Under the pieces are notes generated by a model. That model worked only from the letters and a program-made list of their open reading frames with translations, searched no databases and was not told the DNA's origin. From contig NZ_KB904370.1 of NCBI RefSeq assembly GCF_000380065.1, positions 1 through 36,922 of the forward strand: a stretch of 36,922 nucleotides of DNA. The letters run 5' to 3'. Source of the stretch: Streptococcus massiliensis DSM 18628 (GTDB taxonomy: Bacteria; Bacillota; Bacilli; Lactobacillales; Streptococcaceae). Shown one piece after another: positions 20,509-22,267 of the stretch (its first letter is position 1; every line of letters begins with the position of its first letter). A program made the position numbers and the translations under genes.

Positions 20509-21911
20509 TTGGACGCAAAACTGAAATACAAAGCTAAAAAAATTAAAATCGTTTTTTTCGATATTGACGATACTCTTCGTGTGAAAAATACCGGCTTTAT
20601 GCCAGAGTCTATCCAGCAAGTGTTCAAGAGTTTGAAAGCCAAGGGGATTTTGACTGGAATTGCCTCAGGGCGTGGCATTTATGGTGTCGTTCCTGAAATT
20701 CGCGCCTTGGAGCCAGATTTTTTTGTGACCCTGAACGGTGCCTATGTGGAGGACAAAAAAGGACAGGTTATTCACCAGCGGGTCATTCCCCAGCCTATCG
20801 TGGAAGCCTATGTGGCTTGGACAAAAAAGCTGGGATTGATTATGGCTTTGCGGGCAGTCATGACGCGGTGCTATCCACTCGCACACCTGAAATTAGCGAG
20901 GCCATGGACATTATTTATCCAGACTTGCCGACTGTGCCAGATTATTATCAAAATCACGATGTTTATCAGATGTGGACCTTTGAAAAGGACGGCGTGCAGC
21001 CTGATTTACCAGAGGATCTGGCAGCTCACCTTCGCGCGGTGCGTTGGCATCCAATCTCTTGCGACATTGTCCCACAGACAGGCTCCAAAGCAGCTGGGGT
21101 GGCTAAGGTCATGGAGCACTTGGGGCTCAAGCCAGAAAATCTTCTGGTCTTTGGCGACGAGGTCAATGATTTAGAATTATTTGACTATGCAGGTCTCAGT
21201 ATCGCCATGGGTGTGTCCCACCCCTTGCTTGCCAAAAAAGCAGATTATATTACAAAAACAGTAGAGGAAGACGGCATTTTTTATGCCTTAGAGGAATTAG
21301 GAATGGTAGAAAAGGAATTACAATTTCCACAAGTTGATCTAGAGCAGGTTGCAGGTCCAAAAGCGACCATTAAGACTAATCTGGGAGAGCTGAATATCCA
21401 GCTCTTTCCAGAGCAAGCGCCTAAAACGGTAGCGAATTTTATCGCCCTAGCCAAGGACGGCTACTATGACGGCGTGATTTTCCACCGGATTATTAAAGAT
21501 TTTATGATTCAAGGTGGTGACCCGACCGGTACAGGTATGGGCGGGCAGTCTATCTACGGCGAGAAGTTTGAAGATGAATTTTCGCCTGAACTTTATAATG
21601 TCCGCGGAGCGCTTTCTATGGCAAATGCCGGCCCCAATACCAATGGCAGCCAGTTTTTCATCGTGCAAAATAGCAGCCTTCCTTATTCTGCCAAGGAATT
21701 AAGCCGCGGTGGCTGGCCAGAGCCTATCGCTGAACTCTATGCGGCCAAAGGTGGTACCCCTCATCTAGACCGCCGTCATACTGTTTTTGGTCAATTAGCT
21801 GACGAGGCTTCTTATCAAGTTTTGGACAAGATTGCAGCTGTGGAGATAGGGGCTATGGACAAGCCAGTTCAAGACGTTGTCATTGAAACGATTGAGGTTG
21901 TGGACGAATGA
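20509..21911 (+). pseudogene. HAD hydrolase - cyclophilin peptidyl-prolyl isomerase fusion, split by a -1 frameshift
   Basis: Two frames together encode one 467-residue protein. The start is TTG at 20509, with GAGG about 6 bases upstream and the conserved beginning MDAKLKYKAKKIKIVFFDID. The upstream frame carries HAD motif I (FFDIDDTL, Asp18/Asp20) and motif II (GIASGRG). After codon 107 the family sequence continues only in the -1 frame: [16 protein letters not shown], the HAD metal motif [16 protein letters not shown], then a cyclophilin domain (about 285-467) with [19 protein letters not shown] and [10 protein letters not shown]. If not recoded, the zero frame runs on as unrelated sequence to 21174 (221 residues) and no isomerase is made. 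The shift is at A-AAA-AAG, so recoding, a real lesion or a homopolymer sequencing error are all possible. It is followed by an ATGA overlap with the S1-domain gene. Confidence 0.85.
20823..20829 (+). other. A-AAA-AAG slippery heptamer, candidate -1 ribosomal frameshift site
   Basis: In the upstream frame the codons are ACA AAA AAG, so the heptamer is in the X-XXY-YYZ register used for -1 slippage (the same heptamer as E. coli dnaX). A single -1 slip leads exactly into the conserved downstream frame at GCT (20829). I see no Shine-Dalgarno-like stimulator 10-14 bases upstream and no strong stem-loop 5-9 bases downstream, so any recoding may be weak. Confidence 0.5.
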
Positions 21912-22267
21912 AAATTGGTGACAAGGTCAAGGGGAAGGTCACAGGTATTCGTTCCTACGGCGCCTTTGTTGAACTCTCAAACAAAGAGATTGGACTGATT
22001 CATATTTCAGAAGTTCGAGCTGGCTTTGTAGAAAATATCCACGATTTTCTAGAAGTCGGACAAGAAATTTTTGTCCAAATTGTTGATATTGATCAATACA
22101 CAGGCAAGGTTAGTTTGTCTTTGAGAGCTTTGGAAGAGGACAAACAAAGCGTCATGCGTCATCATCGCTTTTCCAATGATCGCTACCAAATAGGTTTTGA
22201 ACCCTTTAGGCGGAATATGAAAACTTGGATAAAAGAAAGCTTGAATGATTTAGGAATTAAAAAGTAA
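21908..22267 (+). CDS. S1-domain RNA-binding protein (YugI/GSP13-like)
   Basis: This 119-residue protein has one S1 OB-fold covering about residues 1-72: [28 protein letters not shown] and [10 protein letters not shown]. The C-terminal tail is basic. Related small S1 proteins in Firmicutes are ribosome-associated or act as post-transcriptional regulators of virulence and stress genes; the exact role here cannot be read off. It overlaps the preceding cyclophilin frame by 4 bases (ATGA), so its translation depends on ribosomes arriving in that downstream frame or on new initiation. Confidence 0.9.

Follow-up and report, generated by a model that had tools for sequence, protein, structure and literature searches.

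The motif A_AA.A_AA.G is among the most efficient -1 frameshifting motifs of Escherichia coli when accompanied by stimulators, and slip-prone motifs lacking stimulators shift in this species at 2.1-10x a background of around 0.055%, according to the available text of PMC4066793. In the GeneTack survey, singleton frame transitions were put down to indels or sequencing errors (available text of PMC3711429). Internal initiation peaks have been reported generally in Streptococcus pneumoniae D39 by Ribo-RET (PMC9426450); the main text of that study names neither cyclophilin nor isomerase. In Streptococcus mutans, liaFSR is co-transcribed with two genes after it (available text of PMC4447274). These are the closest described systems to the locus that we report here, where a fusion gene is split at an apparent slippery site.

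The DNA analyzed here (36,922 nt, hereafter the window) forms contig C7 of a draft Streptococcus genome, an assembly of 84 contigs totaling 1,864,153 bases. It encodes a Cof-type HAD-IIB hydrolase fused to a cyclophilin and split between two reading frames (Table 1). On its 5' side, the fusion gene is flanked by liaF and liaS, and also by a response-regulator gene that we call liaR from its position. On the other side, the cyclophilin stop and a cvfD-type gene overlap by ATGA. We take the genes co-transcribed after liaFSR in S. mutans to be ppiB and pnpB. Most relatives have ATG at the codon aligned to the TTG start of the window. The region from 20829 to 21911 matches itself at 100% and its relatives at up to 81% identity among the matches listed. 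No second intact fusion was found elsewhere in the genome among the Pfam cyclophilin matches. The only other such match, C63:5624-6169, lies within an open frame of 268 codons, which is too short for the fusion.

Table 1. Features of the split HAD-cyclophilin locus (window coordinates)
Feature	Coordinates	Strand	Evidence
HAD (Cof-type) domain, first 107 codons, TTG start	20509..20829	+	Pfam Hydrolase_3, E 7.6e-18
HAD N-terminal part	20509..20829	+	TIGR00099 profile positions 1-93
A AAA AAG heptamer, -1 change of the conserved frame	20823..20829	+	In 0/145 intact relatives
Upstream frame read without slip, 221 codons	20509..21174	+	ORF reading; stop at 21174
Conserved frame (HAD remainder and cyclophilin), 360 codons after the break	20829..21911	+	Hydrolase_3 6e-25, Pro_isomerase 1.4e-48
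Strongest synonymous constraint, HAD/cyclophilin junction	21243..21320 (limits approximate)	+	15-codon minimum 0.42 vs gene mean 0.875
Inverted repeat GGCAT-N5-ATGCC, possible RNA hairpin	21273..21287	+	Five pairs in 44/47 clusters
Shine-Dalgarno-like AGAGGA	21290..21295	+	GAG Glu codon in 41/47 clusters; duplex of -5.8 kcal/mol in the window
Predicted free cyclophilin, 202 codons, internal ATG	21303..21911	+	NTG in 47/47 clusters; start inferred
cvfD-type S1 RNA-binding protein gene	21908..22267	+	NF040579 S1_dom_CvfD, 144.5 bits (cut-off 117)

A preliminary description of this DNA, made from the sequence alone, had recognized a HAD/cyclophilin family gene, and the domain searches agree: Hydrolase_3 matches lie on both sides of the break and Pro_isomerase after it. 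Its reading of the frames also holds. The first 107 codons are in the upstream frame and the conserved frame restarts at 20829 (AGIDYG...), -1 relative to it, while the unslipped product has the 221 residues announced, its frame ending at 21174. The upstream-frame codons at the break are ACA AAA AAG CTG. There are six A's at 20823-20828, the first of them a third codon position, and A AAA AAG at 20823-20829 is, as had been claimed, an X_XXY_YYZ site in register for a -1 slip.

The relatives of the gene do not share this arrangement. We searched the part downstream of the break in 283 other Streptococcus genomes. In 279 of them, a single stop-free frame of 462-514 codons encodes the fusion (149/149 among the matches listed, 56/57, and 74/77). 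The nearest sequences compared come from other species and share 77-81% identity with the window downstream of the break, among the matches listed. The DNA at the site was compared in 145 intact loci (127 distinct proteins), which are partly redundant, loci from different genomes repeating some species; around 134 further genomes were judged intact by open-frame length alone. The heptamer is present at the aligned site in none of the 145. The longest A run there is of 1-3 bases in 137 loci, and four have a run of six that is not followed by G. The heptamer and synonymous counts leave out L045 (at a contig edge), L184 (G275, broken), L058 and L060 (separate genes, from Lactococcus), and the non-fusion loci L062-L065 and L067-L082.

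The four remaining genomes depart from the intact fusion in other ways. In G084 (L210), several frame changes occur in the fusion gene near the domain junction. In G275 (L212), the fusion is split a few codons beyond the site of the window, without a homopolymer. In G210 (L211), the HAD part is absent and a free cyclophilin is kept, adjoining the response-regulator gene. G145, a genome that is 89% complete, gave no fusion match at E 1e-40.

The headline of the preliminary description was a programmed -1 frameshift at A_AAA_AAG. Like the site of dnaX, it would let a single transcript encode both a truncated protein of 221 residues and the complete fusion. We rejected this candidate, since the tests of conservation, stimulators, and synonymous constraint all went against it. 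The heptamer is in register and the downstream frame is conserved, but the heptamer and the frame change are not found in the relatives (0/145 loci; 279/283 genomes in one frame). The 41-131 nt following the run fold no better than shuffled sequences (z 0.34, -0.69, -0.70, and -0.38), and an equally good fold is obtained for 29% of random coding stretches. There is no sign of an upstream Shine-Dalgarno stimulator, the anti-Shine-Dalgarno pairing before the run being average (51% of random positions are as strong). Nor is there synonymous constraint at the break, where variation at the aligned site, in a 15-codon span, is 0.91 of expectation vs a gene mean of 0.87. In favor of recoding, 114 codons follow the site before the overlapping frame closes, the range among 80 relatives being 0-81. 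The short product would have no HAD sequence beyond codon 107. In addition, tRNA-Lys(CUU) lowers slippage on AAG, and its gene is present in this genome, a draft in which many tRNAs are missing (15 of the 17 tRNA loci could be read). We are therefore confident that the break is not programmed, and recoding in the manner of dnaX seems very improbable.

The register of the heptamer, which makes the site look convincing, is little more than what chance gives and is no independent evidence for recoding. We counted A runs in long ORFs of the same genome (316 ORFs, each with 200 codons or more, taken from 436,922 nt). Runs of exactly six A's before G are in the register of the heptamer in 21 of 140 cases, including the one in the window, and among the 23 runs of seven A's before G, 15 have their first A at codon position 3. 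If an A7G run in this register contracts by one base, the same in-register heptamer results. The heptamer is best seen as the probable leftover of a change in poly-A length rather than as a recoding signal, an interpretation that shares the confidence given below to the explanation as a whole.

A private one-base length change in the poly-A run, by mutation or by a sequencing or assembly error, suffices for the break and is its most likely cause. The odds between a recent mutation and an error are about even. Of the three options in the preliminary description, the loss of a base and a sequencing error fit the evidence. The third, recoding, is not supported, given that the heptamer is absent from the 145 loci and that neither a stimulator nor synonymous constraint was found. 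Downstream of the break, the window departs from columns that are invariant in 23 other clusters at three positions (median 1; 3/23 clusters have as many or more), and upstream it has no such departure. This limited decay downstream fits an error or a recent change, and would also fit recoding. It speaks against a pseudogene mutation, fixed in the lineage, that would have left the entire gene without function: there is little decay in either half, and the cyclophilin part and the junction element described below are intact. The breaks or losses in a few other species (G275, G084, G210, and G145) count in favor of a fixed inactivation, which we regard as improbable.

We also scanned for frame transitions in 436,922 of the 1,864,153 nt of the genome (the window and 20 other stretches). 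This revealed 109 transitions in which both segments have at least 90 nt, of which nine were flagged. Two of the nine were judged to be conserved genes split at A runs, the HAD-cyclophilin fusion and a homologue of HamA. The others look like normal neighbors, like noise from low-complexity or antisense sequence, or like a gene that was recombined or truncated. The HamA homologue (a Hachiman defense protein, PF08878; contig C19, L130 2962-3904) is read in two frames at an A9 run, and its split may result from an error, a mutation, or phase variation. Together with the low decay, this second split at an A run fits either cause of the break in the fusion, error or mutation. Separately, a radical-SAM gene at L127 6131-6558 is apparently shortened (73-codon frame, PF04055, E 2.5e-07), and its frame continues into another one that has no Pfam match.

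Synonymous variation within the gene reaches its minimum at the HAD/cyclophilin boundary (Table 1). We studied this junction in 47 clusters of intact fusions (<92% identity). None of 5000 column permutations gave a value as low as the minimum of 0.42 over 15 codons (mean 0.875), in a test that takes clusters as independent and neighboring sites as exchangeable. Of the 30 lowest windows, the only ones away from the junction are those of gene columns 1 and 2 (0.58 and 0.61). The constraint is visible in the choice of codons. Within the inverted repeat, Gly is GGC or GGT and Ala is GCC or GCT in 47/47 clusters (backgrounds of 0.60 and 0.58), and the wobble base of Ile in the loop is free (ATT in 33/47, background 0.67). 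The following Glu is GAG in 41/47 clusters (background 0.32). An NTG codon comes next in 47/47 (ATG 25, TTG 21, CTG 1), and the Val after it is GTA in 28/34 (background 0.20). The binomial P values of these choices are overstated, since clusters are taken as independent, and the same pattern is seen in 23 clusters at <80% identity (GGC/GGT 23, GCC/GCT 23, GAG 21, ATG/TTG 22). Over the 145 loci, some of which repeat species, the codon at the domain boundary is ATG in 115, TTG in 27, and CTG in one, that is, NTG in 143, the remaining two having TTA.

The inverted repeat is kept in 123 of the 145 loci, and its pairs hold in 98.3% of the cells vs 21.7-60.0% when the repeat is slid. Pairs vary on one side only, by wobble changes. 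Since no pair has changed on both sides, the pattern is the same for a hairpin in RNA as for an inverted repeat in DNA. One other 5-bp hairpin in the gene, taken as a control, is kept in 40/47 clusters, which makes the repeat alone weaker evidence than the codon choice. The hairpin shuffles (500/500) say little here. An overlapping gene was rejected as the source of the constraint: the other five frames are open over 90 nt in 0, 17, 3, 16, and 3 of the 47 clusters. The start of a short upstream ORF is present in 33/47 clusters, and the window has a GAC codon there.

Our preferred reading of the junction element is an internal translation start for a free cyclophilin, and its use as such seems probable from the pattern of conservation. 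Mean anti-Shine-Dalgarno pairing at the junction NTG is -7.89 kcal/mol, the best of six conserved internal NTG columns (the next being -5.47), and it ranks first within single sequences in 22/47. In the window, the pairing of the start at 21303 (-5.8) equals that of the TTG start of the gene itself, but among in-frame starts downstream of the break it ranks only sixth, with 21111 in first place. The constraint might instead mark a regulatory site in DNA or RNA, such as a protein-binding repeat, a processing site, or an internal promoter, rather than a translation start. Such a site would account for a constraint that extends around 60 nt upstream of the NTG, beyond the needs of a ribosome-binding site, and for a repeat that varies by one-sided wobble changes only. 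It would leave unexplained why NTG, GAG, and the following GTA are all constrained, why the Shine-Dalgarno pairing is the strongest of the six columns, and why a gene boundary of Lactococcus falls at the same point. Moreover, the region 20900-21500 has no Rfam match up to E 1, and the genome holds no second exact copy of the element (one copy has two mismatches). We consider a regulatory site unlikely, if less so than a fixed pseudogene, and retain the internal start as the preferred reading.

The organization in related genera bears on the origin of the fusion. In Lactococcus termiticola (L058), the junction is where the HAD frame ends, and 12 nt downstream, preceded by AGAGG, a separate cyclophilin gene starts. 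HAD and cyclophilin are also separate in L. fujiensis (L060), where the cyclophilin gene starts further on. In L064 and L065, the HAD and cyclophilin matches are in different frames, and the matches in Enterococcus and Vagococcus are free-standing cyclophilins. The simplest history would be that two neighboring genes fused and that the start of the second was retained. Within Streptococcus, G210 has its free cyclophilin at the corresponding place. The conserved junction element and the separate genes in Lactococcus together suggest that the fusion probably kept an internal start. Across Streptococcus, HAD-cyclophilin would then be a two-product gene, giving the fused protein and a free cyclophilin from one mRNA, with the second start kept under selection and a new inverted repeat upstream of it. 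On balance, comparative evidence of this kind makes such a gene fairly likely.

Taken together, the observed break, its absence from the relatives, and the constraint at the junction lead us to the following explanation, to which, as a whole (a private, non-programmed break and a conserved internal start), we give a probability of around 80%. In the streptococcal HAD-cyclophilin fusion located between liaFSR and cvfD, a one-base poly-A change would split the HAD domain of this strain, and the HAD enzyme would be lost if the break is real. The repeat, the Shine-Dalgarno-like run, and the NTG would be a start kept from a two-gene stage such as still exists in Lactococcus. A free cyclophilin could be made from 21303, around 130 nt past the premature stop. 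Since the junction element is intact in the window, this protein of 202 codons could still be produced, and in this strain it would outlast the loss of the fusion. The frame break is in itself ordinary, and it shows that a change of poly-A length can mimic a convincing slippery site, which calls for caution in frameshift screens. The internal start would be a new case of in-frame internal initiation; in the open-licence literature, we found no publication on the HAD-cyclophilin fusion or its internal start, including under internal starts in general. If true, it would provide a clear example of a genus-wide fusion that keeps two products by means of a retained internal start.

Comparison with the systems cited at the outset places the locus as follows. 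The heptamer and its register are common to the window and to the dnaX-type -1 frameshift at A_AAA_AAG, but the site of the window has neither stimulator nor conservation. Like the GeneTack singletons, it shows a frame change in one genome and none in the relatives, with the difference that the change happens to fall on a slippery heptamer (available text of PMC3711429). The streptococcal fusion of a Cof-type HAD-IIB hydrolase and a ppiB-like cyclophilin matches the window in its domains, their order, and its neighborhood of liaFSR and cvfD, whereas the frame of the window is broken and 279/283 other genomes have it in one piece. Finally, whereas the HAD-cyclophilin start is predicted from conservation only, it resembles the internal starts found by Ribo-RET in S. 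pneumoniae D39 in being a second in-frame start that would give an N-terminally shorter protein (available text of PMC9426450).
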